Positions 30,028 through 53,532 of a stretch of DNA of 64,000 bases are shown here, in pieces. The notes under the pieces are model-generated. The model worked only from the letters and a program-made list of their open reading frames with translations, made no database searches and was not told the origin of the DNA. This DNA comes from Rhodobacterales bacterium HKCCA1288 (GTDB lineage: Bacteria > Pseudomonadota > Alphaproteobacteria > Rhodobacterales > Rhodobacteraceae): positions 1,240,001 to 1,304,000 of the forward strand of contig CP065161.1 in NCBI GenBank assembly GCA_015693905.1, given 5' to 3'. Position numbers and translations under genes: made by a program. Position 1 is the stretch's first letter; the number at the start of each line of letters is the position of its first letter.

Positions 30028-31515
30028 TTAATCCGCCGCCACATAGGCGCGCAAAGCAGCGCGCAACCCTTGCGACCAAATCAAAGTCAACCAATCGCAA
30101 AAGGCTGTCGCAAAGCGCGGATCATCGGCCAGATCACCATAGATCCGCGACATAGAAAGCCATGCCATTGGATCAGATTTTGCGACAAGCGCCGTCTGAT
30201 GCAAATCAGACCAATTAGGGTCATTCGCTTCAATCACTGTTCCATCTTCGCGGGTAGCGGCACACATGCGCGCCCATGCGGCCTCGACCAAAGCGAGCCC
30301 TGAAATTGAGCTGCCCTTTTCCAAACCATCGCGCAACGAAGGCAGCACAAAACCTGGATGACGGGACGAGCCATCAAACGCCACGCGGCGCGTTGTGTCG
30401 ACAATCATCTCATTTCCAAAGCGCCGTTCAATCAGCGTCACATAATCGGCGGGGGTCATATCTGGCACGGGCTGCACATGGGGCGCGATTTCCTCGCGCA
30501 CCACTTTTGCAAAAAAGGGCGCAACATCCGCATCCCCCATCGCAGCAGAGATTGTGGCAAGTGACAGAACCTCACCTGCATTGGCCAACACCTGATGTCC
30601 GCCGTTTAGAATGCGAATTTTCATCGCCTCGAACGCGTGAACGTGATCCGAGAAGGTCGCACCGGCCAAATCCCAATCGGGGCGGCCCGCACAAAAATCA
30701 TCTTCGATCACCCATTGGCGAAAGGCCTCGTGGGTGACGGGCACTTGATCATGCAGTCCAAACTCCTCGACCAAGGCCAATTCATTCGGCCCTGTCGCAG
30801 GGACGATGCAATCCACCATCGAATTGGGAAAGCTGCAGGCGGTGTTGATCCAATCGGCCAAATCAGCATCCATCAGACGCGCAAGCGACACAATCGTCTG
30901 ACGCAGAACCGCGCCATTGCCCTGTAGGTTATCGCAAGATTGCAACGTGATTGGCCCCTGCCCCTTGGCACGGCGCAGACGCAAGGCCGCAACAATCGCG
31001 CCAAAGGCCGTGCGCGGCTGGTCAGGATAGGCCACATCATGCACAATATCAGGATGCGCCGCATCAAACCCGAGCGTAACAGGGTCGATATAATAGCCAC
31101 CTTCGGTCACAGTTAGGGCGACAATCCGAATATCCGCCTCAGCCATGCGCGCGATCAGCGGGCCGTTACCCTCAACCACAGGGATGTAATCAATCATCGA
31201 CCCGACCACTTCGGCAGAGACACCTTCGGGATCAAGCTTGATCAATGTCGTCAGGCAATCTTGTGCCAGCATTTTTTGACGCTGCACGTCATCGTAAGGG
31301 CGCACGCCTGCACCGATAATCGCCCAATCATGCGCCAGACCCTGCTCCATCAGGCGATGCAAATACCACGATTGGTGCGCGCGGTGGAAATTCCCAAGAC
31401 CAATATGAACAATTCCCGCCGAAAGCGCACTTCGATCATAACTGGGCCGCGCAATCTTTGAAGGCAGGCTTGAAAGGTTATCTTGGCTAAGGGCAATCAT
31501 CGGCACGTCTCGCAT
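30028..31515 (-). CDS. mtlK: Mannitol 2-dehydrogenase
   Basis: This polyol-specific long-chain dehydrogenase oxidises D-mannitol to fructose with NAD+. The N-terminal nucleotide site is IVHIGLGNFHRAHQSWYLHRL, and the catalytic lysine region is MKIRILNGGHQVLANAG with the family motif KxxxxN(G)xH. The length of 495 residues is typical. ATG 31515 overlaps the SDR stop (ATGA); a TTG at 31527 also exists in frame. It is the last gene of the polyol operon, as in Rhodobacter smo operons. Confidence 0.92.
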   Translation of the reverse strand: MRDVPMIALSQDNLSSLPSKIARPSYDRSALSAGIVHIGLGNFHRAHQSWYLHRLMEQGLAHDWAIIGAGVRPYDDVQRQKMLAQDCLTTLIKLDPEGVSAEVVGSMIDYIPVVEGNGPLIARMAEADIRIVALTVTEGGYYIDPVTLGFDAAHPDIVHDVAYPDQPRTAFGAIVAALRLRRAKGQGPITLQSCDNLQGNGAVLRQTIVSLARLMDADLADWINTACSFPNSMVDCIVPATGPNELALVEEFGLHDQVPVTHEAFRQWVIEDDFCAGRPDWDLAGATFSDHVHAFEAMKIRILNGGHQVLANAGEVLSLATISAAMGDADVAPFFAKVVREEIAPHVQPVPDMTPADYVTLIERRFGNEMIVDTTRRVAFDGSSRHPGFVLPSLRDGLEKGSSISGLALVEAAWARMCAATREDGTVIEANDPNWSDLHQTALVAKSDPMAWLSMSRIYGDLADDPRFATAFCDWLTLIWSQGLRAALRAYVAAD

Positions 31516-32288
31516 CAGCTCATCCAATTCCCGCCATCGACATTATATGTCTGGGCCACGATGTAATCGGCATCCGCGCTTGCCAGAAACACGGCCATGC
31601 CTGTTAAATCTTCAGCTTGCCCCATGCGCCCGAAAGGCACGGCTTCGCCGACTTCGCGCTTTTTCTGGCCAAGGGGCTTGCCCTCATATTTTGCAAAAAA
31701 CGCATCCACCCCGTCCCAATGCTCGCCATCCACCACACCAGGCGCGATCGCATTCACATTGATCCCATGGGAAATGAGGTTCAGCCCTGCGGATTGGGTC
31801 AGACTGATCACAGCCGCCTTAGAAGCACAGTAGACTCCCACCAAGGCCTCACCGCGCCGCCCTGCTTGGCTGGCCATATTGATAATCTTGCCCCCCTGCC
31901 CGCGGGCAATCATTTTCTTGGCGACAGCCTGCATGGTAAACAGAACGCCCGCCACGTTGATCGCAAAGACCTTGTCAAAATCGGCGCGCGTGATTTCGAC
32001 AATGGGGGCAGCGGTGAAAAGCGCTGCATTGTTGATCAAGATATCAATGCCACCAAGATTGGATTCAACCTGATCCACGGCTGCTTCGATACTGGCTTGG
32101 TCTGTCACATCCATTTCAACCGCGCACGCCTTGGGGCCAAGCGCCGCTGCCGCCTCGCCGGCGCGGGTGATGTTAATGTCGCCAATCGCAACCTCTGCGC
32201 CTTCTGCAATGTAGCGCTGCGCAAACGCGTATCCGATGCCGCGCGCAGCCCCCGTGATCAGCGCCTTTTTCCCAAGAAGCCGTGTCAT
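31515..32288 (-). CDS. smoS: Sorbitol dehydrogenase (short-chain, SmoS type)
   Basis: This is a classical SDR of 257 residues. It has the coenzyme motif [25 protein letters not shown] (an NNAG variant), and the catalytic YCASK with Ser before it in [14 protein letters not shown]. The C-terminal [13 protein letters not shown] is typical of L-iditol/sorbitol 2-dehydrogenases. It oxidises D-glucitol to fructose. It overlaps both the ATPase gene upstream and mtlK downstream by four bases or fewer. Confidence 0.92.
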
Positions 32289-33289
32289 GACTGGCGGAGC
32301 CCCTTTGCATCAAAGCGGTGGATGTGATCGGGGTTTGGCGTCAAATGCACAGTCGCGCCGTAATCTACGTCCATCTCACCCGAGATCCGCACGGTGATCG
32401 GTTCGGCATGGCCCTCGATTTGAACGTGCAAAAACGTGTCAGACCCCAAATGTTCAGACACACCAACCTGTCCTGACCATGTGCCTTTGCTTGTGGAAAT
32501 TTCCAAATGCTCGGGGCGGATGCCAATCGTATGGGCGCCATAAGGTGTAGCCAGATCACCGCCTAACAGGTTCATCTTGGGTGATCCGATAAAGCCTGCG
32601 ACAAAGGTGTTGCACGGGCGCTGATACAGCTCCAACGGGCTGCCCACCTGTTCGATAACGCCTGCACGCAAGACCACGATCTTATCGGCCATGGTCATCG
32701 CTTCGACCTGATCATGGGTCACATAGATCATCGTGGTCTTCAGGCGCTTGTGCAATTCGCTGATCTCAAGGCGCATCCCAACCCGCAGCGCCGCATCTAG
32801 GTTTGACAAAGGCTCGTCAAACAAGAATGCGGCAGGCTCGCGCACGATGGCACGGCCAATGGCCACGCGCTGGCGCTGACCACCCGATAATTGCCCTGGC
32901 TTACGGTCGAGATAATCCGTTAGGTTCAACACCTCTGCCGCTTGCGCAACACGGGCGTCTTGTTCCGATTTGCTCAGCCCCGCCATACGCAGCGGAAACG
33001 CGATATTCTTGCGCACCGACATATGCGGATAAAGTGCGTAAGACTGGAACACCATCGCCAGACCACGCTTGGCTGGGGCAATGTCAGTTGCATTCACCCC
33101 GTCAATCATCACCGCGCCATCGCTGACATCCTCAAGCCCTGCGATCAAACGCAAAAGCGTGGATTTCCCGCAGCCTGATGGGCCGACAAAGACGACAAAC
33201 TCGCCATCATTAATGTCCAAATCTAGCGGCGGAATAACTTCGACATCCCCGAATTTCTTGGACACTTTGTTTAATGTGATCTGTCCCAT
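32285..33289 (-). CDS. smoK: Polyol ABC transporter ATP-binding protein
   Basis: This is an ATPase of the MalK/UgpC family. It has Walker [11 protein letters not shown]-loop [13 protein letters not shown], signature [14 protein letters not shown], Walker [13 protein letters not shown] and switch THDQ. The C-terminal TOBE-type regulatory domain covers about residues 235-334. It energises the two permeases encoded upstream. The gene starts 11 bases after smoG. Confidence 0.93.
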
Positions 33290-33300
33290 TTCCGCTCCGC

Positions 33301-34131
33301 TTATTTAACCGCGCCAAAGGTCAGGCCGCGCACAAGTTGTTTCTGGCTGAACCACCCCATCACAAGAATGGGCGCAATCGCCATGGTCGAAGCTGCCGAT
33401 AGCTTCGCGTAGAACAGCCCTTCTGGACTAGAATAACTGGCGATGAAGGCCGTCAGCGGGGCCGCATTGGCCGCTGTGAGGTTCAATGTCCAAAACGCCT
33501 CGTTCCACGCCAAAATGACATTGAGCAAAATGGTTGAGGCAATTCCAGGAATAGCCATTGGTGTCAGCACATACAGGATTTCCTCGCGCAAGGTGGCGCC
33601 ATCCATCCGCGCGGCCTCTAGGATCTCGCTCGGGATTTCCTTGAAATAAGTATAGAGCATCCAGACAATGATCGGCAGGTTGATGAGCATCATAACCACA
33701 ACCAAACCAAAACGGCTGTCGAGAAGGCCAAGCTCAATGAAGAGCAGGTAAATGGGATAAAGCACCCCAACCGCAGGCAGCATTTTGGTGGACAACATCC
33801 AAAGCAAAATATCCTTGGTGCGTTTGGACGGCACAAAGGCCATAGCCCAAGCGGCAGGGATCGCCACCAACAGGCCAAGCGCGGTTGAACCAAACGCGAT
33901 GATGATCGAATTCCACAGATAGCGGGTGTAGTCCGACCGCTCCTGCACAACGCCATAATTCTCTAGCGTCCAGTCAAAGAACAAGAATAAAGGCGGGTCA
34001 TTGATCGCTTGCGCCTCGGTTTTGAAGCTTGTCAGGATCGTCCACAAAATCGGGAAGAAGATCAAAAAGCCAATCGTCCATGCAACCAAAGTATTGATGA
34101 GCTTACGGTTTGGGGTGACTGCGCGGGCCAT
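33301..34131 (-). CDS. smoG: Polyol ABC transporter permease, MalG type
   Basis: The 276-residue protein has six transmembrane helices. The EAA loop, [25 protein letters not shown], contacts the ATPase and lies about residues 170-195. The first helix is [20 protein letters not shown], with the large periplasmic loop after it. This is the second permease of the sorbitol/mannitol importer. The gene begins 12 bases after smoF ends. Confidence 0.92.
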
Positions 34132-34143
34132 AGCGTTTCCTCC

Positions 34144-35010
34144 TCACGCGTCCAAATTCTTGCCAACGATGCGCATCAAGAAGACGGCAACAATATTGGC
34201 AAGGATGATGGCGTAGACCCCGCCCGCAGACCCCAGACCCACATTCTGGCTTTCCAACACGCGTTGGAAGATCAGGTAGGTCAGCGTCCGCGTGCCAAAG
34301 GCCCCGCCCGTGGTCACAAAAATTTCGGCGAAAATAGACAGTAAGAAAATCGTCTGGATTAAGATCACAATCGTGATCGCCCGCGCCAAATGCGGCAGCA
34401 CCAGATTGAAAAACCGTGCAACAGGGCCTGCGCCATCCATTTCGGCGGCCTCTAGTTGCTCACCATCCAAAGATTGGATCGCGGTTAGTAAAATCAGCGT
34501 GGCAAAAGGCAGCCATTGCCACGAGACAATCATGATCAACGATGTAATCGGCACATCCGACAACCACACAACAGGTTCGGCCCCAAAGGCGCGCCACAAA
34601 TGCGCAAACAGGCCATTGACGGGATCCATAAAGATATTCTTCCACACCAAAGCCGATACAGTGGGCATAACGAAAAAGGGCGCGATGACCATGATCCGCA
34701 CGACACCCTGCCCCCAAATGGGCTGATCCAACAGCATGGCGAGGAATATGCCAAGGATAACAGTGATGGCCAAAACCCCGAGCACGATCACAAGGGTGGT
34801 TTGAACCGCAGGCCAAAACGAACTTGAGCTGATAAAGCGGATGTAATTCTCAAACCCGATAAAGCCTTGGTCGCCACCGCGCAGCGGCAGATATTGCCGA
34901 AACGAAAACCACAAGGTCATGGTCAACGGAACAAGCATCCAACCAAGCAGCAAGATCACGGCAGGGGCCATCATCACACGCGCAGCGGATCGTGAATGTT
35001 GGGTGGCCAT
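34144..35010 (-). CDS. smoF: Polyol ABC transporter permease, MalF type
   Basis: The 288-residue protein has six transmembrane helices and an EAA loop, EAAEMDGAGPVARFFNLVLPHL. The start at ATG 35010 gives the family's usual short cytoplasmic tail MATQHSRSAARVMM before the first helix. It is separated from smoE by 128 bp that contain a stem-loop. This is the usual way to make much more binding protein than permease. Confidence 0.92.
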   Translation of the reverse strand: MATQHSRSAARVMMAPAVILLLGWMLVPLTMTLWFSFRQYLPLRGGDQGFIGFENYIRFISSSSFWPAVQTTLVIVLGVLAITVILGIFLAMLLDQPIWGQGVVRIMVIAPFFVMPTVSALVWKNIFMDPVNGLFAHLWRAFGAEPVVWLSDVPITSLIMIVSWQWLPFATLILLTAIQSLDGEQLEAAEMDGAGPVARFFNLVLPHLARAITIVILIQTIFLLSIFAEIFVTTGGAFGTRTLTYLIFQRVLESQNVGLGSAGGVYAIILANIVAVFLMRIVGKNLDA

Positions 35011-35082
35011 CGGCAAATCCTTCACGGGACAGACATCGGGTCTGGTCAATATATATTAACAAATACGGGGGCGATGTCGGAA

Positions 35083-35117
35083 AATGTGGGAGGCGACCTT
35101 GAGACGCCTCCCACGTT
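35083..35117 (-). terminator. Intercistronic stem-loop after smoE (mRNA-stabilising or partial terminator)
   Basis: GTGGGAGGCG (35086-35095) pairs with CGCCTCCCAC (35105-35114), extended by a G-T wobble and two A-T pairs, with a nine-base loop. On the minus strand it is followed by ACATTTT. It sits 22 bases after the smoE stop. Confidence 0.75.
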
Positions 35118-35138
35118 CTTGGGGAGGTGGGTTACCGC

Positions 35139-36443
35139 TTAGCGATAGCCCGCTGCTTCCATTGCTTCATTGGTGATGGCTTGTGCTTTTTCCAAAGCCT
35201 CATCAATCGACTGCTGGCCTGCATAAACTGCCGAGAATTCTTGGCTCACTTCAGATGCGATGCCCGCAAATTCTGGGATCGCTGCGAACTGAATGCCGAC
35301 ATAGGGGCTTGGCTCTACGGTCGAGTCGTTCGGGTCTGCGGACAAGATCGAACGAAGTGTCATGTCTGCAAATGGAACGTCTGCGTAGTTGGGGTTCTCA
35401 TAGAGCGAGGTGCGCGCGCCTGGAGGCACGTTTGCCCAACCTTCATTGGCGGCAACCAATTCGATATATTCTTTGGAAGTCGCCCATTCGATGAACTGCT
35501 TGGCTGCATCTGCTTGCTGTGTGCCCGCAGGGATAGCCAAGGCCCAAGCCCAGAGCCAGTTGGAACGCTTGCCAAGGCCATTATCAGGTGCCAGGGCAAA
35601 ACCTACGTGATCTGCAACAGTCGAGTCATTGGGGTTGGTGACGAAGGATGCCGCAACAGTCGCGTCAATCCACATACCGCACTTGCCCTGCTGGAACAGC
35701 GACAGGTTCTCGTTGAAGCCGTTGGTGGCATAGCCCGCAGGGCCCGATTCATTCATCATGCCAACAAAGAATTCCAACGTGTCACGCCATGGCTGTGTGT
35801 CGAACTGTGCGTTCCAGTCCATGTCGAACCAACGTGCGCCAAACGAGTTGGACATTGCAGTGATGAAAGCGCCGCCTTCACCCCAGCCTGCCTTACCACG
35901 CAGACAGATGCCGTTGATGTCATTTGCGCGATCTGTCATCGCTGCCGCCGCTTCGCGGATGAAGGCCCAAGTTGGCGCTTCTGGCATTTCCAGACCCGCT
36001 GCTTCCATCAGGTCTGTGCGATACATCACCATCGAGCTTTCGCCGTAGAAAGGTGCCGCGTAAAGCGTGCCATCATGGCTCAAACCGCCTGCCATTGCGG
36101 GCAGAAGGTCAGCCACATCGTACTCGGCGCTGAGGTCGTCCAAAGGCACAAGCCAGTCATTAGAACCCCAGATCGGCGCCTCATACATGCCGATGGTCAT
36201 GATGTCGAACTGGCCACCATTTGTGGTGATGTCGGTGGTCACGCGCTGACGCAGCACGTTTTCCTCAAGGGTCACCCACTCAACATTGATACCAGTTTGT
36301 TCTGTGAATGTATCCGTATAGCCCTGCATACGGATCATATCGCCATTGTTTACGGTTGCGATTGTGATGGTCTGCGCCATCGCAGCGCCAGCAGTCAGCA
36401 CAGACAAAGCTGTCGCTGCAAGCAACGAGCGTTTCATAGTCAT
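35139..36443 (-). CDS. smoE: Sorbitol/mannitol ABC transporter substrate-binding protein
   Basis: This 434-residue periplasmic binding protein of the MalE-like family has a clear signal peptide, MTMKRSLLAATALSVLTAG then AAMAQ. The mature part begins TITIATVNNGDMIRMQGYTD, followed by the family hinge blocks and the repeated NPNDSTV. Position at the head of smoE-F-G-K-S-mtlK identifies the ligand as a hexitol. GGAGGAG lies six bases before ATG 36443, and a long palindrome sits in its promoter. Confidence 0.93.
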   Translation of the reverse strand: MTMKRSLLAATALSVLTAGAAMAQTITIATVNNGDMIRMQGYTDTFTEQTGINVEWVTLEENVLRQRVTTDITTNGGQFDIMTIGMYEAPIWGSNDWLVPLDDLSAEYDVADLLPAMAGGLSHDGTLYAAPFYGESSMVMYRTDLMEAAGLEMPEAPTWAFIREAAAAMTDRANDINGICLRGKAGWGEGGAFITAMSNSFGARWFDMDWNAQFDTQPWRDTLEFFVGMMNESGPAGYATNGFNENLSLFQQGKCGMWIDATVAASFVTNPNDSTVADHVGFALAPDNGLGKRSNWLWAWALAIPAGTQQADAAKQFIEWATSKEYIELVAANEGWANVPPGARTSLYENPNYADVPFADMTLRSILSADPNDSTVEPSPYVGIQFAAIPEFAGIASEVSQEFSAVYAGQQSIDEALEKAQAITNEAMEAAGYR

Positions 36444-36510
36444 CCTACTCCTCCCAAGGATTCTATTCAGTGAACAGACGTTACTGACAAGACTTGTTTC
36501 CCGTCAATAA

Positions 36511-36534
36511 AAAAATTTACGCGTGTAAATTTTT
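36511..36534. promoter_or_regulatory. Palindromic operator upstream of the polyol operon
   Basis: AAAAATTTAC-GCGT-GTAAATTTTT has perfect 10-bp arms around a 4-base centre and lies 68 bp upstream of smoE, between it and the LacI-family gene. A central CG within an even palindrome fits LacI-family operators. It is the best candidate binding site for the regulator encoded at 36559-37590. Confidence 0.7.
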
Positions 36535-36558
36535 ATTTTAGCCCTTGATAATCTTGGA

Positions 36559-37590
36559 TTATGCCGAAGCGCGCATAATCAACTCGCCATCAAACAGCGT
36601 CACTTGTCGGGTATCGCCGCGTTCGCCCGACTCGATCAAAGCCATCATTGTCTCAACGCTTTTCGTGGCAATGCGCGCATAATCATGCGAGATCGTGGTC
36701 AAGGTCGGGCAGGTAAACCGCGCCACGGGGTGGTTGTCATGCCCCGCCACCCGCAGCGCGCAATCCGCCTCGCGCCCCACGCGCAAACCCAATTCATAAG
36801 CCGCTGCCAAAAAGCCAATGGCCAAGCGGTCATTACTGCAAAAAATCGTATTGCTTGAAAAGGCGCGTTCCATAATCACCCGCCGCCCTTCGTTATAGCC
36901 GATCTCCTCGAGCGCCCACCCTTCCCCATGGGCCTGCACGACCTGTGGTGCGAACCCCAATCGCTCCATCGCGCCGATATAGGCCAAGCGGCGCTTATTC
37001 GCATTTGGGTTGGGCGGCGTGCGCATCTCGAAAAATACGGGCGGCTCGCCTGTGCGGGTCAGATATTCGACCATCTTATCGGTTGCTTGTTCGTTGTTGT
37101 GACCCACAAAGGCCTCGCCGATCCCCTCAATATTGGCATCAAAATTCACTGTAGGCACATCAGCGCAAAAGCTTTCCAAAGCCGCCCGATCAGAGGCGCG
37201 CCCAAGCGGGGCCAGTAGAACAGCCGCAGGCTTAATCGCGCGTAGTGCGTCCAAATTGCCAACCTCAAGCTGCGGATCGCCATGCGAGCTCAGCAAAATT
37301 GGACGAAACCCCTGCGCAATCACCAATGTCTCGATCCGCCTTGCGATTTCGGCAAAAAACGGGTCTGCCAGATAGGGCAAAACAATGCCGATATTTTTCG
37401 TCAGTTTGCGGTTCTGGTTCACCGCAAAGATATTGGGACGATAATTGCTTTCCTCCAACGCCTGCTCAATTTTGGCGCGGGTGGCGGGGCGGACGCTGTC
37501 GGGGTCGTGAAAATATTTTGACACAGTCGGACGCGACACTCCGCAAAAGGCGGCAAACTCCTCCATATTGCGCACGGGCCGATCTTCCAT
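36559..37590 (-). CDS. LacI-family transcriptional regulator of the polyol operon
   Basis: The 343-residue regulator has an N-terminal helix-turn-helix FAAFCGVSRPTVSKYFHDPDSV and hinge helix IEQALEESNYRPNIFAVNQN. A periplasmic-binding-protein-like effector domain follows, starting KNIGIVLPYLADPFFAEI. It lies immediately upstream of smoE on the same strand, with a palindromic operator between. ATG 37590 is preferred over a TTG at 37605. In Rhodobacter the equivalent operon is induced by hexitols, so the effector is probably sorbitol or mannitol. Confidence 0.9.
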   Translation of the reverse strand: MEDRPVRNMEEFAAFCGVSRPTVSKYFHDPDSVRPATRAKIEQALEESNYRPNIFAVNQNRKLTKNIGIVLPYLADPFFAEIARRIETLVIAQGFRPILLSSHGDPQLEVGNLDALRAIKPAAVLLAPLGRASDRAALESFCADVPTVNFDANIEGIGEAFVGHNNEQATDKMVEYLTRTGEPPVFFEMRTPPNPNANKRRLAYIGAMERLGFAPQVVQAHGEGWALEEIGYNEGRRVIMERAFSSNTIFCSNDRLAIGFLAAAYELGLRVGREADCALRVAGHDNHPVARFTCPTLTTISHDYARIATKSVETMMALIESGERGDTRQVTLFDGELIMRASA

Positions 37591-37717
37591 TTGTCTCACT
37601 TTCAATTTTTTACCAAGCTTTACGTTTTCTTATCGCGCGAAAAAAATCAAGACTTGAGAAAATCTCGGATACGGCCCGCAGTTCAACCTGACGCCTTGCC
37701 TTTCGCGCCACGGCACT

Positions 37718-38735: not shown

Positions 38736-38805
38736 CGCAGCGGCAACATCCAAACGACCCCACCAAAGCAGCAGGCCCGACTTTATACCGCCAAATAAAG
38801 GAAGA

Positions 38806-38834
38806 TGGCGGAGGGGACGGGACTGGAATCGAAC
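38806..38834 (-). other. tRNA 3'-end-like remnant, candidate integration scar
   Basis: Read on the minus strand this ends CCCGTCCCCTCCGCCA, which has the form of a Ser-type tRNA 3' end: T-stem strand CCCGT, acceptor strand CCCCTCC, discriminator G, then CCA. The preceding TTCGATTCCAGT cannot complete a T arm with it, and no tRNA body follows, so this is not an intact tRNA. It lies exactly where the core genes end and the copper island begins. Confidence 0.45.
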
Positions 38835-38899
38835 GTTCTCCGCCGCCTAGATCATTGATATTAATATGTTTCTGATCGCCGGGAGCACAGAAACGAGAA

Positions 38900-39853
38900 T
38901 CAATGGTCAGGTGCTACCAGCCTATCTGAAGCTCCATGCTCGCTTTCATGCGTCCGCGTAATATCGATGTCCTCGGCTCCTGCTTCGTCGAGGCATCTGT
39001 CTTCAACCTGAAGCGTGATAAGGAAGAAGCCGAATTTTTCCTTCAGCAAAGCATGCGCGGCTGGCAAAACCGCGGCGGCATCGGCACCGGATGACATCAG
39101 CACGTGCCCGGAAAAGACGTCCTTGCCACTGGTCAACGTCCATGCGTGGACGTGATGTACGTCGGCGACGCCCTCGAGACCGCCAATTGCCGCGATGACA
39201 TCATTCAAGTCCACATCTTCCGGCGTTCCCTCCATCAACATGTGGATCGACTCCTTCAGGATACCCCAGCTCGCCCAAACAAGGACAAAGCCGAAGGCCA
39301 TGCCGAGGAGCGGGTCGATCAGCAGGAAGCCAGTGAACTGGATCACGAGTGCGGTGACGATGATGAGCAGACTGCCAACGAATGTCTGCACGATGTGCCA
39401 GACGGCCCCACGCGTGTTCAGATCTCCGCGCCCTTCCTTCCAGAGCAGTCCGAGCGAGATCACCTCGGTCACAAGCCCTCCGGCGGCAGCCAAGAGCATC
39501 GGACCAGTCGGCAGATCGATCGGTGCCGAAAGCCGCATCGCCGCCATTCCGATGACGAACAGCGCCATGGCCAGAAGAAAGGCCCCGTTGATTGCCGCAC
39601 CGACGATTTCGGCCCTGTACCAGCCAAAGCTCCGGTCGCTGTCGGCGGGACGTCGAGCGATCCGCGCTGCGACGATGGCGACAAGAACACCACCAACGGC
39701 CGAAAAGGTATGGAACGCATCGGAAATCACCGCGATCGAACCCGTCCATATGCCGATCCCGAGTTCGACGACGAAGTAAAGGCCAGTCAACCAGGCCGAG
39801 ATCGTCAAAGCCCGACCTCCGCTGGGCAGATGCCCTGAGTGTCCATGATCCAT
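38900..39853 (-). CDS. Cation diffusion facilitator (CDF) transporter with altered metal site
   Basis: The 317-residue inner-membrane antiporter of the CzcD/ZitB branch has six transmembrane helices and a C-terminal cytoplasmic domain (VADVHHVHAWTLTSGKDVFSGHV). In canonical zinc CDF proteins helices 2 and 5 each carry H-x3-D. Here the aligned residues are HTFSA (helix 2) and HIVQT (helix 5), so both aspartates are missing. Specificity may therefore not be zinc. AGGAGGGG lies before ATG 39853. The nearby copper genes suggest a copper-related role. Confidence 0.88.
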   Translation of the reverse strand: MDHGHSGHLPSGGRALTISAWLTGLYFVVELGIGIWTGSIAVISDAFHTFSAVGGVLVAIVAARIARRPADSDRSFGWYRAEIVGAAINGAFLLAMALFVIGMAAMRLSAPIDLPTGPMLLAAAGGLVTEVISLGLLWKEGRGDLNTRGAVWHIVQTFVGSLLIIVTALVIQFTGFLLIDPLLGMAFGFVLVWASWGILKESIHMLMEGTPEDVDLNDVIAAIGGLEGVADVHHVHAWTLTSGKDVFSGHVLMSSGADAAAVLPAAHALLKEKFGFFLITLQVEDRCLDEAGAEDIDITRTHESEHGASDRLVAPDH

Positions 39854-39914
39854 GTCTTCCCCTCCTAATGCCGCCAGCGGCGACGCACGCGCGGCCGACT
39901 AAACGGCAATGTAA

Positions 39915-40379
39915 TCAGCGCTTTGCGGTCTGAATTGCCGCCCCGATCGCACCGGCCCGGGGCTTGGGCTTGCCTCGGCCGCTTCCTGGGTCGGTCTTCG
40001 CGAGATCGGCGATGATTGGGCAGTCCGGGCGATGATCGCCGTGGCAGGACTCGATCAGCGTCTCCAGCGTCTCCGACATGGCCTCAAGTTCTTCGATCTT
40101 GCGGCGAAGGTTGCTCAGATGGCCCTCTGCCAGCTGCCTAACATCCGCGCTCCTGCGCGATTGATCCGTCCAGAGCCCCAGCAGTTCACCGATCACCTCG
40201 ACCGAAAACCCGAGGTCCCGGGCACGGCGCACGAAGCTGAGCATATGCACGTCTCGGTCGCTGTAGTCCCGGTAGCCGGAATCGGTACGCTGCGCGGGCG
40301 GGATCAGGCCGGTCTGCTCATAGTAGCGGATCATCTTTGCCGAAACGCCGGATTTCTTGGCGGCTTCTCCGATGTTCAT
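39915..40379 (-). CDS. cueR: MerR-family copper-responsive regulator (CueR-like)
   Basis: The 154-residue activator has the winged helix MNIGEAAKKSGVSAKMIRYYEQTGL at the N-terminus and a dimerisation helix. Its metal loop, CHGDHRPDCPI, has two cysteines spaced as in CueR, which senses Cu(I). It should act on the CopA promoter at 43286-43316, where the spacer is 19 bp. The stop-side tail is Pro/Lys-rich. The start overlaps the stop of the glutaredoxin-like gene (ATGA). Confidence 0.88.
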   Translation of the reverse strand: MNIGEAAKKSGVSAKMIRYYEQTGLIPPAQRTDSGYRDYSDRDVHMLSFVRRARDLGFSVEVIGELLGLWTDQSRRSADVRQLAEGHLSNLRRKIEELEAMSETLETLIESCHGDHRPDCPIIADLAKTDPGSGRGKPKPRAGAIGAAIQTAKR

Positions 40380-40633
40380 GTGCGTTCCTCCTCAAACAGC
40401 TTCAGCGCTGCTGCGATCCTGGGTCTCTGTTCGGAGTAAGTTCCATAGGTGAACCAGTCCCCGATCACCGTGATCGGCGCAACGCGCACACCGTAGCGCG
40501 CCTTGGCTTCCTGCATCACCTCCGGCTCGGCCAGATCACGTTCCTCGTAGACGATGCCGCTCCGCTCCATCCATGCCTTGAGCTGGCGGCAATCGGGACA
40601 GGTGGGCGTGGTGTAGAGGACGACATGGGCCAT
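40376..40633 (-). CDS. Glutaredoxin-like protein
   Basis: The 85-residue thioredoxin-fold protein opens MAHVVLYTTPTCPDCRQLK, with the redox pair CPDC, followed by the cis-proline segment RVAPITVIGDW. Proteins of this kind reduce disulfides or, in copper operons, shuttle or protect thiols. ATG 40633 fits the fold start. It lies between CopA and the regulator on the same strand, 85 bp after copA. Confidence 0.85.
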   Translation of the reverse strand: MAHVVLYTTPTCPDCRQLKAWMERSGIVYEERDLAEPEVMQEAKARYGVRVAPITVIGDWFTYGTYSEQRPRIAAALKLFEEERT

Positions 40634-40718
40634 GTTCTTCGTTCGCTTTTGCACTGGTCCGCTCCTTCAATCTGCTTCGGTGAGTGCCCCGGGCATGGAC
40701 AGCCCGGAGCGATCGTGG

Positions 40719-43247
40719 TCATTCCGCCGGAACGGCCGTGGGCGCAGCGGCCCAGCTGCCGGCAGGCGCATCGGCTGGCGACGGAACAGCAAACCGCTTG
40801 AGCCGCAGCGCGTTGCCGAGGACGAACACGCTGGACATTGCCATGGCGCCCGCCGCGAAGACGGGTGATAGCAAGATACCGAAGGCCGGATAGAGAACGC
40901 CGGCAGCGACCGGGATCAGCGCCGTGTTGTAGGCGAAGGCCCAGAACAGGTTTTGCCGGATGTTGCCGATAGTAGCCTGGCTGAGTGCAATGGCATTGGG
41001 GATGCCTCTCAGGCTGCCCGACATCAAGACCACGTCGGCCGCCTCGATGGCCACATCCGTGCCGGTTCCTATGGCGAGGCCCACATCCGCTTCGGCGAGC
41101 GCCGGGGCGTCGTTGATGCCGTCCCCGACATAGGCCAGCCGGCCTAGAGCCTTCAGTCGCTTCACGGCTTCGACCTTGCCGTCGGGCAGCACTTCGGACA
41201 CGACCTCGTCGATCCCGAGCCGACGGGCGATGGCATCGGCCGTGCGCGCATTGTCGCCGGTGATCATCGCGACCTTGAGGCCGAGAGCGTGGAGCGCCGA
41301 AATTGCCTCGGAGGTTGTCTCTTTGATCGGATCGGCCACGGCGATGATCGCAGCAAGTTTGCCGTCGATGGCAGCATAGAGCGGCGTCTTGCCTTCGTCG
41401 CCAAGGCGCTCGGCCGTCTGGTCGAACGCGTCGATAGCGAGGCCGAGCTTGCGCATGTAACGGTCGGCACCGATCTGGACGCGTCTGTTCGCAACCGTCG
41501 CCTCGACGCCGTAGCCAGTCACGGAGTTGAACCCCGCGACAGGAAGCGACCCTGCCCCTTCTGCTTGCGCCGCCTCGACGATAGCCCGCGCGATAGGATG
41601 CTCGGACCGATCCTCGACCGCGGCAACCAGCTCCAGTACCTCCGCCCGGTCGAATCCCTCCGCAAGTTCGAGATCAGTGAGCGCGGGCTTGCCCTCGGTC
41701 AGCGTGCCGGTCTTGTCGAGCGCGACCACCCGTGTCTCCTTGAGAAGCTGCAGGGCTTCACCCTTGCGGAAGAGCACACCCATTTCGGCGCCGCGCCCCG
41801 TCCCGACCATGATCGAGGTCGGCGTTGCGAGGCCCATGGCGCAGGGGCACGCGATGATCAGCACGGCCACAGCATTCACGAGGCCGAAGGTCAGCGCGGG
41901 ATCGGGCCCCCAGATCAACCAGACACCGAAGGTCAGGGCTGCCAGCGTCATCACCGCCGGGACGAACCACATGGTCACACGGTCGACGAGCGCCTGGATC
42001 GGCAGTTTCGAGCCTTGTGCCGCCTCGACCATCCGGATGATCTGCGACAGCATCGTGTCACCGCCTACCGCGGTTGCGCGGAAGGCCAAGGCGCCGTTCT
42101 GGTTCACCGTGCCACCGACAACCTGCGCGCCGGCGCTCTTGGCAACGGGGACCGGCTCTCCCGTAATCATCGACTCGTCGACGTAGCTTTCACCCTCGAC
42201 AACTTCGCCGTCCACGGGCAACCGGTCGCCCGGTCGGATCTCGACAATATCGCCCGCGGTGACATCGGCCACCGGGATCTCCATCACCGTGCCCTCGCGA
42301 CGCACGCGGGCCGTCTTGGCCTGGAGCCCGACGAGCCGCTTGATCGCTTCGGAGGTTCGACCCTTGGCGCGCGCCTCCAGGTAGCGACCCAGCAGGATGA
42401 GCGTGACGATCACCGCCGCGGCCTCGTAGTAGACGTTCACTGTGCCGTCGGGGAGAACACCCGACGCAAAGGTCGCTACGACCGAGTAGAAGTAGGCCGC
42501 CAACGTCCCCACCGCGACCAAGCTGTTCATGTCGGGCGTGCCACGGAGGAGCGCCGGGATGCCCTTGGTGTAGAAACGCAGTCCCGGCACCGCGAGCACG
42601 AAACTCGTGAGCGCGAATTGAAGGAGCCAGCTCGCCTGATGCCCAATTGTGGACCCGATCAGTGCGTGCATGCCGGGAATGAGGTGGCTGCCCATCTCAA
42701 GCACGAAGACCGGCAGGGTCAGCACCGCGGCAAGGCTAAGGTCACGTCTTAGGGCCGCCTGTTCGGCATCCTTGCGCGCTGTTTTTCCTTCCTCGTCACC
42801 GGCCTGTTGGGAGACTTCCCGGGCTGTGTATCCGGTTTCCGCGACGGCGGCGATCAGCGTCGATACGTCCGCTGTGCCCTCGACGGTCGCCTGCTCGGTC
42901 GCGAGATTAACGCTGGCTCTGGTGACACCGGGGATGGCCTGAATCGCCCGCTCGACACGGCCGACGCAAGACGCGCACGTCATGCCGTCAACGGCGAGCA
43001 CGATCGTCTGTCCAGGCACAGCATAGCCTGTCGCCTCGATCGCTCGGATCAGTTCCGGCCGAAGGGACGGCTTGGCGATACGCACCTCCGCAGACTCGGT
43101 CGCGAGGTTGACGTTGGCCGACAGCACACCGGGCACTGCCGACAGCGCTCGTTCGACCCGGCCAACACAGGAGGCGCAGGTCATGCCTTCTATCGGGATC
43201 CGCACCGTCCCGCCCGTCCGCGGCGGCCTATCCGTGTGAGCTTTCAT
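40719..43247 (-). CDS. copA: Cu(I)-exporting P-type ATPase CopA
   Basis: This P1B-type ATPase of 842 residues exports Cu(I) to the periplasm. It has two N-terminal metal-binding domains, each with [14 protein letters not shown], and a transmembrane copper site ACPCAMG in helix 6. The phosphorylation site is DKTGTLTEG, with TGE in [11 protein letters not shown] in SEHPIARA and the hinge [10 protein letters not shown]. The C-terminal YNTALIP and [15 protein letters not shown] blocks are diagnostic of Cu(I) transport. ATG 43247 has AAAGGACA upstream. The MerR-type promoter lies 39 bp before it. Confidence 0.95.
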
Positions 43248-43285
43248 GGCTTGTCCTTTCGAGTTCGAATCATTGCTCACATGTC

Positions 43286-43316
43286 GAGATAAGGGTTCCA
43301 ACGATTGGAAGGTCAA
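43286..43316 (-). promoter_or_regulatory. MerR/CueR-type copA promoter with 19-bp spacer
   Basis: On the minus strand TTGACC (43316-43311) and TATCTC (43291-43286) are -35 and -10 hexamers separated by 19 bp. The spacer contains the dyad TTCCAA-TCG-TTGGAA (43296-43310). The over-long spacer with a central dyad is the hallmark of promoters untwisted by MerR-family activators. Confidence 0.85.
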
Positions 43317-43320
43317 GCGC

Positions 43321-43567
43321 CATGCGAGTACGCGAAAGTCGAGAGATCAATCGGCAAGCTCGCAGAAATGACCAGGTCGGATCATCCAGCTCGTTAGACG
43401 GCGGCGAACGGCGATGTCCCTATGTCCAGCCGAGACTTTTCGGCGTGGGCAACACAGCCTATTCGAGGCTGAAGAGGACCAAACCTGAAGCCAGGCCGAC
43501 AAGTTCACAGAACATTCTGCGGCGATGGGCCTGATCAGCGTTGCCGTAGTAGGCTACAGACACAAGG
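43321..43567. other. Region with no supported gene
   Basis: This stretch separates the copA promoter from the membrane protein at 43568. A short minus-strand frame ends at 43459 with a hydrophobic tail (MFCELVGLASGLVLFSLE), but it has no ribosome site and overlaps the next gene, so I do not call it. Nothing else is evident. Confidence 0.5.
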
Positions 43568-44215
43568 ATGCAGCGCTTCTTCTCACTCGAAATGCCGTTC
43601 TCGCGGTTTGCATGGAACACCATGCTTGTCAGCCTCGCAGGGCTGCTGCCGCTCCTTGCGATCTTCGTCGCGCTGACGCCAGGCTTCGCGACCGCATTGT
43701 CCGAGAACCAACAGGCGCTCGAGCGGTTCCTGCGCCAGGTTGTCACCAACGGGCTACCCGTCGCCTTCGTTGTGAATTATCTCGCCTTCTTCCTCTACGC
43801 CTCGACCAACGCGCGCGGAAACCTTGAGCGACGACCAGGCTTGGTCCTGTTCCTTGACGTCGCCGCAAGGCTCGTTGCCTTCATTGTGCTGCACATCTTG
43901 ATCTACGTGCTTTCCGCTGATTGGTTCGGGTCTTTCGGAGGCAGTCGCGCAACGGCCATCCGCGTCGTCGCACCCACCCTCGCGCGCTCGGCTTTCTTCG
44001 AGAATATCTCGGGGGTCTATCTCTACGCGACGCTGGTCAGCGCAATTCCACTCTATGTCTCCGTGATCGAGGGTTGGCTCGCGCAGGGCCGATCATTTGC
44101 GCATAGCCGTTCTCGGGGAATCGCTGTGTTCTTGTCGCTCGTGCTCTTCGGTGCAGTCGTCGTGCTTTTGACCGGCATCGGCTATCTTGTGTCCGCGCTC
44201 CAATCATCCAGCTGA
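43568..44215 (+). CDS. Uncharacterised five-helix membrane protein
   Basis: The 215-residue protein has hydrophobic segments at about 19-40, 62-82, 92-118, 143-168 and 185-210, joined by short loops. I see no conserved metal ligand pattern and no known family. ATG 43568 has only a weak ribosome site, so an ATG at 43592 or 43622 may be used. It lies between the cytoplasmic copper module and periplasmic cluster 1, on the opposite strand to both. Its relation to copper is inferred only from place. Confidence 0.65.
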   Translation: MQRFFSLEMPFSRFAWNTMLVSLAGLLPLLAIFVALTPGFATALSENQQALERFLRQVVTNGLPVAFVVNYLAFFLYASTNARGNLERRPGLVLFLDVAARLVAFIVLHILIYVLSADWFGSFGGSRATAIRVVAPTLARSAFFENISGVYLYATLVSAIPLYVSVIEGWLAQGRSFAHSRSRGIAVFLSLVLFGAVVVLLTGIGYLVSALQSSS

Positions 44216-44343
44216 TGCAATGACGCAGCCCGGTTGAGGATTGGGCCACGCATAACGCGAAATTCATATGGCCATCGTTGCTACCCGTGGCCAGATTGTT
44301 CACTCTGGGAACAACAAAAATCTACTGGCAGAGGGCAGTACGC

Positions 44344-44631
44344 GTGAAGTCGAGACATCTGGCGCAAGGAAGTCTGGTATTGGTCCTTGGCGGATGTTCG
44401 CCTTCGTTCGATCAGGGAGGCCGCGGAACTGAACGGGCTGAAGCGCCGGTGCCCGAAGCCGTCATCCAGATCGCGGCCCCTTACCAGGATCTCGCGACGG
44501 CCCGCCTTCGTACGGAAGACGGATGCTACTGGTATCTCCACTCTGGGCCCGTTGAAACGACCCTTCTGCCACTTCGAACGGTGGAGGGTCGCCCGATCTG
44601 CACAGCATCCAGCCCGGCAGTTTCCGGCTGA
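44344..44631 (+). CDS. Cys-rich lipoprotein, copy 1 (GCYWYLH family)
   Basis: The 95-residue product starts at GTG 44344. A basic N-terminus and hydrophobic core end in the lipobox VLGGC, so it should be an acylated periplasmic protein. The C-terminal half carries APYQDLATARL, DGCYWYLH and PLRTVEGRPICTA, with two further cysteines that may pair or bind metal. A paralogue is at 57820-58080. Here it points toward the L,D-transpeptidase gene (convergent), while in copy 2 it runs with the operon. No named family. Confidence 0.75.
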   Translation: MKSRHLAQGSLVLVLGGCSPSFDQGGRGTERAEAPVPEAVIQIAAPYQDLATARLRTEDGCYWYLHSGPVETTLLPLRTVEGRPICTASSPAVSG

Positions 44632-44697
44632 TTAATTTTGGCGCTGGCACGGTAGAACGGGCTCACGTCCGCTCGTGGCCCTTGAGCGCCGGACACT

Positions 44698-45363
44698 TCA
44701 GGTCCTTGAGCCGAGGGAATTTTCGGCCGGGTAAAGACGCGCAGTGACACCGATTGCGACTTGATCGAAGAGTCCGTTGATATGCGCCATGACCATTCGG
44801 ACGCAGCCCGAGCTGGCTCTCGATCCGATCGATCTTGGATACGGTGTACCATGGATACGAAGATAAGTGTCCCGTTCGCCCACATATAGATAGAGCGCGC
44901 GAGATCCCAAAGCGTTGCTCGGTCCGGGCTCCATCCCGTCTTCGTACTGCGCATAAAGATCGGGCTCTCGCTCGATCATGGAACGGGTGGGCGTCCAGTG
45001 CGGCCAGCGGACCTTGCGACGGATCGCGTAGGTGCCAGGCTCATAAAGGTCGCCGCGCCCGATAGCCACTCCATAGCGCATGGCCGTTCCGCCTTCTTCG
45101 ATGTGGTAAAGGTAGCGCGCGACCGCGTCGACATGGATGTCGCCCGGTCTCAAACCATCGTTTGCGATCACCCGGGTTGGCAGGAAGCGCGGATGAAGGC
45201 CCCAGGGGTTCGACGCGGCCGGATCGTAGTTCACAGGCGTGACCTGCGCATCCCATTCCGCTTTCTGTGCCTCGCTCGGCCAGGTGCTGGCAACCAGCGG
45301 ACCGGTGATGGGCGGCGAGAACAAAGCGGCCGTAGAAGCGATGAAATGGCGGCGGGTCAGCAT
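44698..45363 (-). CDS. L,D-transpeptidase (YkuD family), copy 1
   Basis: The 221-residue exported enzyme has a Tat-type signal peptide (MLTRRHFIASTAALF). The YkuD catalytic core has the histidine in RIHGTPYPRSIG and the nucleophile in SRASSGCVRM. Such enzymes form 3-3 cross-links in peptidoglycan or attach proteins to it. It is the last gene of the leftward arm of copper cluster 1, 37 bp after the DsbA-like gene. Its presence in both clusters suggests a role in wall repair under copper stress, since Cu ions inhibit L,D-transpeptidases. Confidence 0.88.
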   Translation of the reverse strand: MLTRRHFIASTAALFSPPITGPLVASTWPSEAQKAEWDAQVTPVNYDPAASNPWGLHPRFLPTRVIANDGLRPGDIHVDAVARYLYHIEEGGTAMRYGVAIGRGDLYEPGTYAIRRKVRWPHWTPTRSMIEREPDLYAQYEDGMEPGPSNALGSRALYLYVGERDTYLRIHGTPYPRSIGSRASSGCVRMVMAHINGLFDQVAIGVTARLYPAENSLGSRT

Positions 45364-45400
45364 CGCGCGTAACTCCGGTCAGTCGATCGCAGGCTTGCGG

Positions 45401-46129
45401 TCATTCGGACCCGTCACGCACCTGCGCGACCAAGGCCTGCAACTGCTCCTGTTCGACGAGACCCGGAACGAGCGCCTCACCGATCACGAAGGACGGAGTG
45501 CCGTTGAACCCCAGAGCCTGGCTAAGGCGCATGGAGGTTGCGATATGCTCTTCGATCTCGGGCGCCGCCATGTCCCGACGGAGCTGCACGAGATCGAGCC
45601 CGACTTCTTCGGCCACCCGCATGACGGCTGCCTCCTCCGCCCGGCCGTTCATCCCCATCAGAGCCCAGTGGAATTCCTCATAAAGGTCCTGTTCGCGTGC
45701 GGCGAGTGCGGCCCGCGCTGCAAAAACAGATCCCTCGCCCAGAATGGGCCACTCGCGATAGACGAGCCGAACGTTTGGATCGGCGGCCAGCAAAGCCTCG
45801 ATCTCCGGTTTTACCCGCCTGCAGTAGGGGCAGTTGTAGTCGAAGAACTCGACGATGGTGACGTCGCCATCAGGATTTCCGAGTACGGGCGCATTCGGAT
45901 CCCGCTCGAGAAGATCGCGCTCGTCCTCCAGAACCTGCGCTTGTGCCTCGGCCTGTGCGTCGGCCTCCTGACGTTGCAGGATGGCGACGGCCTCCATCAC
46001 GATTTGCGGGTTCTCTCGAATGGTCTCGAGGACCAGCTCGCGTACCCGATCCTCCGACAGGTCGTCCGCGGACGCGGCGATCGGCAGAAAAACGGCCAAT
46101 ACCGTGGCGCAGAGAATGGATTTCTTCAT
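45401..46129 (-). CDS. ScsC-like DsbA-family thiol oxidoreductase, copy 1
   Basis: The 242-residue periplasmic protein has a signal peptide (MKKSILCATVLAVFLPIAAS). A helical extension of about 60 residues (DLSEDRVRELVLETIRENP and on) resembles the ScsC trimerisation domain. A DsbA domain follows with FFDYNCPYCRR and cis-Pro loop NGTPSFVIG. ScsC proteins are disulfide isomerases linked to copper tolerance and are kept reduced by ScsB, which is encoded in the same cluster. The longer frame to 46186 is rejected for lack of a signal sequence at its start. Confidence 0.87.
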   Translation of the reverse strand: MKKSILCATVLAVFLPIAASADDLSEDRVRELVLETIRENPQIVMEAVAILQRQEADAQAEAQAQVLEDERDLLERDPNAPVLGNPDGDVTIVEFFDYNCPYCRRVKPEIEALLAADPNVRLVYREWPILGEGSVFAARAALAAREQDLYEEFHWALMGMNGRAEEAAVMRVAEEVGLDLVQLRRDMAAPEIEEHIATSMRLSQALGFNGTPSFVIGEALVPGLVEQEQLQALVAQVRDGSE

Positions 46130-46133
46130 TGGG

Positions 46134-46622
46134 TCAACTCCCTTCGTTGGCGAAGCTCGCCTCCGTACGGGCAGCCTGCGCGGCACGCGCGCGCTCCGGC
46201 CACGTCGATCGGATGTAGGCGAGAATGGTCCAGATTTCCTGATCGCTCAGCTGCCCGGAGAAGCCGGGCATGCCGCTGTCGAACTCGATGCCCTGCATGG
46301 CCAGCGTCTCACGGCCGCCAAGCTTCGTGTATTGGAACAGGACACTGTCGGGGTGGTGCCATGTATGCCCGGTCTCGTCGTGAGGGGGCGCCGGCAACCG
46401 GCCGTCGGGCCCCGGGCTTTGCCAGTCAGGCTGCCCTTCCAGGTTTGCGCCATGACAGGACGCGCAGTACTCGCCGTAGAGCACCTCACCTTGTGCCAGG
46501 TCGAGACCTTCTGGAATGACCATTGCAGCCTCAGACTCCGAGCCCCCGCCCTTCCACCAGAAAGCAACCAGCGCGACGGAGACGATGGCGGCAGCAGCTA
46601 CCGCGACGACACTCCTCCGCAT
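46134..46622 (-). CDS. c-type cytochrome, copy 1 of the MCO-adjacent type
   Basis: The 162-residue membrane-anchored or secreted monoheme cytochrome has an N-terminal helix (RSVVAVAAAAIVSVALVAFWW) and heme site CASCH at about 59-63. The axial methionine is probably the one in SGMPGFSGQLSDQEIW. An unusual loop PPHDETGHTWHHPDSVLF is conserved in copy 2. The ATG overlaps the stop of the multicopper oxidase gene (TGATG), so the two are made together. It is a likely electron acceptor for the oxidase or its substrate. Confidence 0.88.
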   Translation of the reverse strand: MRRSVVAVAAAAIVSVALVAFWWKGGGSESEAAMVIPEGLDLAQGEVLYGEYCASCHGANLEGQPDWQSPGPDGRLPAPPHDETGHTWHHPDSVLFQYTKLGGRETLAMQGIEFDSGMPGFSGQLSDQEIWTILAYIRSTWPERARAAQAARTEASFANEGS

Positions 46623-48016: not shown

Positions 48017-48060
48017 GTCATCTTCCTCGGGGGCGCACGCCAGGATTGGATCGCGCCATC

Positions 48061-48999: not shown

Positions 49000-49001
49000 C
49001 G

Positions 49002-49601
49002 TCACTCGTCCTCGGCGCGAAACCGGGTGTGACAGGCCGAACAGACCTGGCTCGTCATTGCGAATGCCGCATCGGCGGGCATGGCGCCGATATCTGCGGC
49101 GGTCATGCCACTCATCATGCCGCCGCCCATCATGCCGTTGCCACTGCCCATCATGGCGCTGCCGTTTCCGCCCATCATGCTGCCGCCGCCCATCATGGTG
49201 CCGGTAGACATCCCACCTTGCTCATGAGCGAGGCCGTTGTCTGCGGCCAGGGCGAGACCGCGTGCGGCCACCTGCATCTGCTCAGCGAGGGCGGCGAACC
49301 TGTCCCACTCATCCCAGATCAGATCGCGGGCCTCGGAGGGTGCGCCGTTGCTCCCTTCCGGGAAGAGATCCGTCATGGCGCTGCCGGAATGCGCCTCGAT
49401 GGTTTCCGCCGCGCGCCTCACGGCGTCTGCATCGTATTCGCGTTCGCCGCGCATCATGGGGGCGACGGCCTGCACCGCATCGCCCATAGCCTTCATGCCT
49501 TCCATGCGCTTCAGGACGACGCCGGTGGCGCCCGTGTGCGCCAGCGCCGCCGCACCGGCGACAACACTCGCGATAGCAATGCTCGTCAGTCTGATGTTCA
49601 T
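49002..49601 (-). CDS. Cytochrome c' (class II) with a Met-rich insertion
   Basis: The 199-residue periplasmic protein has a signal peptide (to about residue 21). The four-helix cytochrome c' pattern has the heme motif CSACHTRFR at 187-195, almost at the C-terminus, as in class II cytochromes. Between helices 3 and 4, residues 131-166 are a Met/Gly/Ser stretch with twelve methionines in pairs (MMGG, MMGS), unlike ordinary cytochrome c'. Paired methionines commonly bind Cu(I). ATG 49601 begins the signal sequence. Confidence 0.85.
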   Translation of the reverse strand: MNIRLTSIAIASVVAGAAALAHTGATGVVLKRMEGMKAMGDAVQAVAPMMRGEREYDADAVRRAAETIEAHSGSAMTDLFPEGSNGAPSEARDLIWDEWDRFAALAEQMQVAARGLALAADNGLAHEQGGMSTGTMMGGGSMMGGNGSAMMGSGNGMMGGGMMSGMTAADIGAMPADAAFAMTSQVCSACHTRFRAEDE

Positions 49602-49642
49602 AGGGTTTCTCCTCGTCTCGGGGGTCGAAATTCTAGCAAGGC

Positions 49643-49972: not shown

Positions 49973-49992
49973 GGTGCGATGCCCGGTTCACA

Positions 49993-53511: not shown

Positions 53512-53532
53512 CCGGCCCGACGGGGTGATGCT

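Follow-up and report, generated by a model that had tools for sequence, protein, structure and literature searches.

A recurring attachment-site core at the junction that bounds an island for copper and mercury resistance in a Rhodobacterales genome

The site at position 38806 of the window (the whole 64,000-nucleotide stretch of Rhodobacterales bacterium HKCCA1288 analysed here) is a genuine attachment-site junction, attR. It bounds on the left an island of 62,082 bp, C1:1278806-1340887, which carries copper and mercury resistance. An intact tRNA-Ser(GCU) gene stands at the other end of the island, in the same orientation as the site, and the arms found at both ends recur in other genomes. 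This agrees with the original prediction that a tRNA-Ser gene was the target of an integration whose junction lies where the copper island starts. We consider it highly probable that the site is the attR of an island integrated at tRNA-Ser(GCU), the catalyst most likely being the large serine recombinase that the island itself encodes.

The attachment core and its recurrence

On the minus strand, window positions 38834 to 38806 read GTTCGATTCCAGTCCCGTCCCCTCCGCCA, and the slightly longer stretch 38806-38840 reads GAGAACGTTCGATTCCAGTCCCGTCCCCTCCGCCA. The prediction had described this as the shape of a tRNA-Ser 3' terminus with no tRNA body, and the description is accurate: the sequence is confirmed, and ARAGORN, run on the whole window, finds no tRNA in it. 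Rfam gives zero matches in the window at gathering scores, and zero in 38700-38950 up to E=10. The parts that can be recognised at the site are these:

38806..38840, minus strand: attR core, a recurring 35-base attachment arm ending ...CTCCGCCA; found in 85 of 296 family genomes, with 137 distinct copies compared
38806..38813, minus strand: CTCCGCCA, the 3'-terminal run common to the site and tRNA-Ser(GCU); presumed crossover region
38810..38841, minus strand: imperfect dyad 12-8-12, GGAGAACGTTCG / ATTCCAGT / CCCGTCCCCTCC, recognised by eye in this sequence and in the consensus of the copies
38848..38860, minus strand: IHF-like site TATCAATGATCTA, within the island and close to the core
38736..38805, no strand: sequence beyond the island at the junction (B' side), with a weak hairpin

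The 12-8-12 dyad is presumed to be a protein-binding site. The element TATCAATGATCTA is called IHF-like by comparison with the IHF consensus WATCAANNNNTTR.

When up to 3 mismatches are allowed, a 19-mer of the site has a single match in the 2.66 Mb genome, but the same 19-mer read backwards has two in the same search, and the 19-mer on its own is therefore little proof. The 35-base pattern GAGAASGTTNGRNNNCNGKCCCRTYCCCTCCGCCA, which was derived from this site together with related copies, also has a single match in the genome at up to 3 mismatches. With the same tolerance it is present in the 85 family genomes noted above, whereas the pattern read backwards scores 0 in each family genome listed, so that the site stands above chance. 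It could be argued that the site is a chance similarity in a GC-rich spacer, given that its match to the tRNA at the island end is only 8 bases and that the backwards 19-mer was found twice; with the 35-base pattern found again in so many genomes and its control scoring 0, this is practically negligible.

A decayed fragment of a tRNA-Ser or tmRNA gene, with no link to mobility, would account for the ending in CTCCGCCA and for the GTTCGA that the site contains. It is nevertheless very unlikely, since the T-arm spacing (judged by eye) is wrong and the pattern recurs at loci with differing flanks, while the silence of Rfam even at low thresholds weakens the tmRNA and the tRNA-relic ideas alike.

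A search of genome contigs with the pattern returned at least 120 stretches, and the 80 matches listed come chiefly from Rhodobacterales and Hyphomicrobiales. When window 37944-38900 was used as the query against 60 relatives, core-like pieces appeared in five genomes. One relative, G003, gave a single unrelated 40-base match that is not the flank; the core pattern is absent there, and G003 is thus not a case of a relative carrying the site without an island.

Among the 137 distinct copies the centre of the core is the most variable part (positions 10 and 13-15), and the invariance of the fixed positions is partly by construction because the copies were gathered with that pattern. Of the 136 distinct copies that have a full 40-base flank, 65 show an IHF-like match with at most 1 mismatch no more than 40 bases upstream of the core, compared with a mean of 2.3 and a largest value of 6 in 200 single-base shuffles, the copies not being independent of one another. 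One and the same upstream flank precedes differing downstream flanks, and vice versa, as is to be expected of junctions of mobile units.

Two other kinds of site were considered and set aside. For the ends of an inverted-repeat transposon, we note that, among the matches listed, cores less than 200 kb apart on one contig share the same direction, and that the opposed pairs (in G199, G282 and G026) are separated by more than 200 kb. The mixed, cassette-like flanks and the dyadic core suggested a site of the integron or res/cer kind; this was dropped as unneeded, because arms that directly follow tRNA-Ser genes, described below, give a better account of the flanks.

The core is also found in two records labelled Thermoanaerobaculia and Anaerolineae, both metagenome bins (L058, 93-127, and L101, 1140-1174), which reflects either inter-phylum transfer or contigs assigned to the wrong bin. 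Genome G124 has four cores, all facing one way, within 112 kb (C1:3058549, 3073174, 3103309 and 3170290). This stretch seems to be made of modules in tandem, and the genes between the cores, to judge from the translations, are metal, restriction-modification and phage-like ones.

The island and the arms at tRNA-Ser genes

The GC content jumps just to the right of the site, being 62.3% in the island as against 54.3% in the left flank and 55.8% in the right flank. For its cargo, 28 proteins were scanned, compared with 61 open reading frames of at least 90 aa given by a crude gene finder. The part of the island that falls inside the window includes the following:

38841..64000, no strand: island portion inside the window, which runs on to C1:1340887
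38903..39853, minus strand: CDF cation-efflux transporter, the island's first gene (PF01545; TIGR01297 above cut-off)
39918..40379, minus strand: CueR-type Cu(I)-responsive regulator (TIGR02044 above cut-off)
40722..43280, minus strand: copper-translocating P-type ATPase, CopA type (TIGR01511 above cut-off)
46625..48442, minus strand: multicopper-oxidase-like protein (best family below cut-off)
60052..61491, minus strand: second multicopper-oxidase-like protein (best family below cut-off)

Above their family cut-offs are the CDF transporter, CueR, two copper-type P-type ATPases, MerA, a zinc/cadmium-type P-type ATPase and an apolipoprotein N-acyltransferase. Matches below cut-off comprise two proteins each of the multicopper-oxidase-like, sensor-kinase-like, DsbD-like and L,D-transpeptidase-like types, an amino-acid-transporter-like protein and a glutathione-reductase-like protein. 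The island also has an IS110-type transposase and a second CDF transporter. Among the 28 proteins scanned there are no phage structural proteins (3 of the 28 having been compared with PHROGs), and no relaxase or type IV secretion genes.

The genome has 38 tRNA matches, four of them Ser. None of these four carries the full 3' end of the site, but all share a terminal run with it, of 8 bases (GCU), 9 (UGA), 7 (GGA) and 8 (CGA). The comparison with the tRNA-Ser genes that had been proposed thus comes out for the last 7-9 bases and fails for the whole end, and a rule that rejects the idea when no tRNA gene shares this 3' end would, taken literally, reject an idea that is largely correct. What does have to be given up is the duplicate of the tRNA 3' end: only CTCCGCCA is held in common, and the rest of the site, about 27 bases, is the element's own recurring attachment arm.

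The intact tRNA gene that had been anticipated at the far end, in the same orientation, is present. This is tRNA-Ser(GCU) at C1:1340888-1340977 on the minus strand, which runs in the core's direction. The distance from the site rightwards to this gene is 62 kb, of which 36.9 kb lie past the end of the window. The gene is followed immediately by an element arm (here called the own arm), opposite to the arm of the site. The 200 bases 3' of this tRNA gene align with arms that follow the core elsewhere. Against L244/G301, 157 of 187 aligned bases are identical (z 30 against shuffles), with 3 differences over the first 90 or so bases and the remainder only weakly alike, and against L175 the figure is 143 of 194 (z 30.5). 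Arms of this type lie 3' of the core in L244, L175, L176, L069, L072, L236, L250 and L253, where between 131 and 157 bases are identical over 174-195 aligned (z 14-30.5), and also, over 23 bases, in L170.

A second type of arm, D1, lies directly 3' of the core in 50 of the 137 distinct copies (51 of 142 core copies with duplicates still in). It is found directly after tRNA-Ser genes with three anticodons, these being GGA (L179, L261), UGA (L256) and GCU (L193/L226, L206/L227, L207/L228), and directly after tRNA-Ser-type 3' ends in L199 and L211, judged by the 3' end only. By eye, an arm stands at no fewer than 6 of the 30 listed tRNA-Ser-type 3' ends, five of them D1-like and the other the own arm; L197 is maybe a diverged seventh, and L195 has 3 bases only after the tRNA.

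Taken as a whole, the own arm is not significantly similar to D1 as found in L226 (z 1.0), or to the arm after tRNA-Ser(GGA) in L257 (z 0.0). Because of the first of these results, the word arm stands for two or more families with a common layout, and it is only the layout, a hairpin and then a T-run, that the own arm and D1 have in common. The hairpin and T-run near the start of the arm, in both types, may be an intrinsic terminator, substituting for the one that the tRNA gene would have lost by displacement. Arms are found after both tRNA-Ser and core, and so a tRNA-Ser gene with an arm is attL, an upstream flank with a core is attR, and a core with an arm is a tandem junction.

The D1 arms, for example L115:5709-5905, are about 200 bases long, far more than a serine integrase should need. 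Each strand of one D1 arm gives a better fold than its shuffled versions (z -2.5 and -3.0). In the alignment of the arms, the row for L165 is not an arm, and it enters none of the counts. At 4162-6158 of L188 (Haematobacter massiliensis plasmid pOT1-2), D1 adjoins genes for a reverse transcriptase, an ATP-dependent endonuclease and a UvrD-like helicase, a set that is possibly a defence system borne by the same kind of element.

The recombinase and the proposed integration

A tyrosine integrase had been expected at the far end of the island. PF00589 has no match there, with 0 of its 14 matches in the genome falling within C1:1278806-1340887. What the island has instead is one large serine recombinase, C1:1333729-1335057, with PF00239 and PF07508 in one long protein, which PHROGs assigns to the integrase family phrog_95. 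Its gene adjoins a DUF2924 gene, with an HTH gene and an IrrE-type peptidase gene nearby.

In the genomes examined, relatives of this recombinase are linked to tRNA-Ser sites or to sites with core plus arm. There are 15 matches at E<=1e-60, over 11 genomes, and for 13 of the 15 a tRNA-Ser gene or a core with arm lies 0.9-11 kb off, with transcription towards it. The 13 are in G000, G071, G027, G014, G124 (two), G008 (three), G129 (three, one of them with a degenerate tRNA-like end) and G301. Near the recombinase at G008:C8:235643 neither a tRNA-Ser gene nor a core was found, and the fifteenth match, the fragment G124:C1:254515, lies outside the loci examined for this tally. The proportion of 13 in 15 is to be read as linkage, not as a rate, because 8 of the 11 genomes were picked for their core or arm sites. 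G000, G071, G027 and G014 have one close copy each, in every case inside a tRNA-Ser(GCU) island; no copy is present in G002 or G003. Among 20 core loci fetched irrespective of recombinase (two of the stretches being short), 10 have an arm, and the recombinase is present in just 2 of these 10, both already among the 13. Over 136 core-bearing loci, mostly of 8 kb, it is matched in 11: in nine it is downstream in the opposite sense, in L109 downstream in the same sense, and in L104 upstream.

A full relative is found on contig 39 of G071 (675-63745), a 63 kb tRNA-Ser(GCU) island with a prophage. It begins with tRNA-Ser(GCU), adjoining a YchF-like gene, followed by D1, a gene for an ATP-binding protein and type I restriction-modification genes; then come the serine recombinase with DUF2924 and helicase, terminase, portal and tail genes; and finally more cargo, including a GroEL-like gene, and the core. 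The recombinase, helicase, terminase, portal and tail are PHROGs assignments, the remaining labels being a reading of the translations. PF00589 has no match in this complete island.

It might be objected that the same junction was made by a tyrosine integrase since lost, and that the serine recombinase came in with another element nested in the island. Serine integrases usually need sites of about 50 bp, and the arms here recur over about 300 bases with an IHF-like site. Long arms and an IHF-like site are more typical of tyrosine integrases, which counts against the serine recombinase, and the dyad core has the same resemblance. Many arm-bearing loci are without a serine recombinase, and G062, which lacks a close one, has D1 at a tRNA-Ser-type end and a PF00589 tyrosine integrase 14 kb away. 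Against this, PF00589 is matched neither in this island nor in that of G071, and the close serine recombinases beside such sites point at them in 13 of 15 cases. We therefore regard a lost tyrosine integrase as rather unlikely.

On the preferred reading, with the serine recombinase as catalyst, integration would have proceeded as follows. A circular element would have carried a long attachment site in three parts: the IHF-like site, then the 35-base dyad core with CTCCGCCA at its end, and then a right arm with a terminator-like hairpin. It would have recombined with the 3' end of tRNA-Ser(GCU) inside the common CTCCGCCA, so keeping the tRNA gene whole and bringing the right arm of the element directly behind it (attL, from C1:1340887 downwards). 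The other half of the element site, the left one, would with CTCCGCCA have become attR at the opposite end, window 38806. Most likely the reaction would have been catalysed by C1:1333729-1335057 with its DUF2924 neighbour. The predicted junction of the excised circle is the core ...CTCCGCCA followed by CAAACCATTCGCGAACCCGAG, in other words core plus 'CAAACCATTCGCG' arm, and the locus restored by excision is predicted to have tRNA-Ser(GCU) joined to TCTTCCTTTATTTGGCGG. The position of the crossover, the serine catalysis, the excision and the movement of the 62 kb as a single unit are what we infer, and attL and attR might come from two different elements.

More broadly, we lean towards a lineage of large serine integrases that is specialised for the tRNA-Ser 3' end, without regard to isoacceptor (GCU, GGA and UGA having been seen). 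It would use an unusually long site (IHF-like site, 35-base dyad core, and an arm of about 200 bases giving the tRNA a new terminator), and would be the vehicle by which prophages, defence systems and metal-resistance islands spread within Rhodobacterales and outside this order, frequently as tandem insertions.

For comparison with known systems, it is relevant that staphylococcal SCC elements show tandem build-up at a single site, and that the tRNA-targeted islands of Islander/TIGER mostly have tyrosine integrases. The closest printed precedent found is phiPam-6, a prophage of Paracoccus aminophilus at tRNA-Met (PMC3925955), which like the island has a serine recombinase, a tRNA target, an alphaproteobacterial host and a short direct repeat at its ends, of 17 bp in phiPam-6. 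It differs in its target, tRNA-Met not tRNA-Ser, in the repeat, and in being an inducible phage. In phage WO of Wolbachia a large serine recombinase likewise serves as integrase, but the integration loci described in the passages of PMC9203015 consulted are a protein gene or intergenic, and 'tRNA' is absent from its text. A possible DUF2924 link comes only from Wolbachia papers in which both terms, DUF2924 and the recombinase, occur; the word DUF2924 is absent from PMC9203015. SCC elements (PMC10581047) have large serine recombinases, direct repeats at their ends and restriction-modification cargo in common with the present system; they differ in their target, rlmH (or rimL), in having other recombinases and in their Gram-positive hosts. 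The Islander/TIGER islands (PMC12884075) resemble this one in their rebuilt tRNA 3' end, cargo, attL and attR, whereas here just 8 bases are common to attL and attR. In M. abscessus, 16 of 23 tyrosine systems are at tRNA or tmRNA genes, the available text naming no serine system there (PMC10654092), and in Streptococcus agalactiae 18 serine-integrase prophages are described in protein genes or intergenic positions (PMC11357604).

Serine integrases mostly have targets other than tRNA genes, and serine recombinases at tRNA genes are unusual, with a precedent in phiPam-6. Islands at tRNA genes and serine integrases are each known; it is less usual for the two to be combined at tRNA-Ser and with such long recurring arms, and no description of this system was found in the literature outside subscription journals. 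Because only 7-9 bases are common to the target, a family of this kind could escape finders that seek long direct repeats. In Rhodobacterales the recurring core provides a simple marker by which prophages, defence islands and metal-resistance islands can be delimited. The attachment sites may also be useful for genome integration.

The left side of the junction

On its right the island is flanked by genes that are collinear in G002 and G003: YchF is found in both, and a pentapeptide-like protein (below the Pfam cut-off) in G003 only. Both relatives have tRNA-Ser(GCU) without such an arm, and the right junction is clean. The left side is rearranged, with DNA similarity resuming only at window position 30,114 or so in G002 and about 29,957 in G003. 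The following feature lies in between:

30028..37605, minus strand: polyol operon (mannitol dehydrogenase, SDR, ABC transporter, solute-binding protein, LacI), left of the junction

This operon is missing at this locus in both G002 and G003. In two other genera it is found close to tRNA-Ser(GCU), at 6.5 kb (G009) and 0.9 kb (G018), in inverted orientation, and in G023 it is about 14 kb upstream of the same tRNA gene. G002 moreover retains about 87 terminal bases of mannitol dehydrogenase, the operon's last gene. Because of its nearness to tRNA-Ser(GCU) elsewhere and of this remnant, we take the operon to have been lost in G002 and G003, and the reading that we favour is that it is native DNA outside the island.

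The core at 38806 could instead be an internal tandem junction, with an older second element filling window 30.1-38.8 kb, which would make the locus a hotspot of about 71 kb of foreign DNA. This is compatible with the main explanation, and it would fit the lack of window 30.1-38.7 kb at this locus in G002 and G003 and the tandem cores known elsewhere, such as the four in 112 kb of G124. A by-eye comparison of 38736..38805 with the known arms nevertheless finds nothing similar leading leftwards from 38805, and there is no TGGCGGAG-type end near window 30.0 kb. The end of the mannitol dehydrogenase gene kept in G002, and the operon beside tRNA-Ser(GCU) in G009 and G018, though inverted there, also speak against a second element, which we regard as possible but doubtful.

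The DNA next to the junction contains a predicted protein of 191-263 aa (window 37944-38735), which has no Pfam family and whose gene (38160-38732) is unmatched in 120 relatives at E<=1e-10. In G002, the place of the polyol operon is occupied by an unrelated 2.4 kb with a GMC-oxidoreductase-like reading frame (G002:C1:737391-739806), and the tRNA-Ser(GCU) locus therefore varies within the genus.
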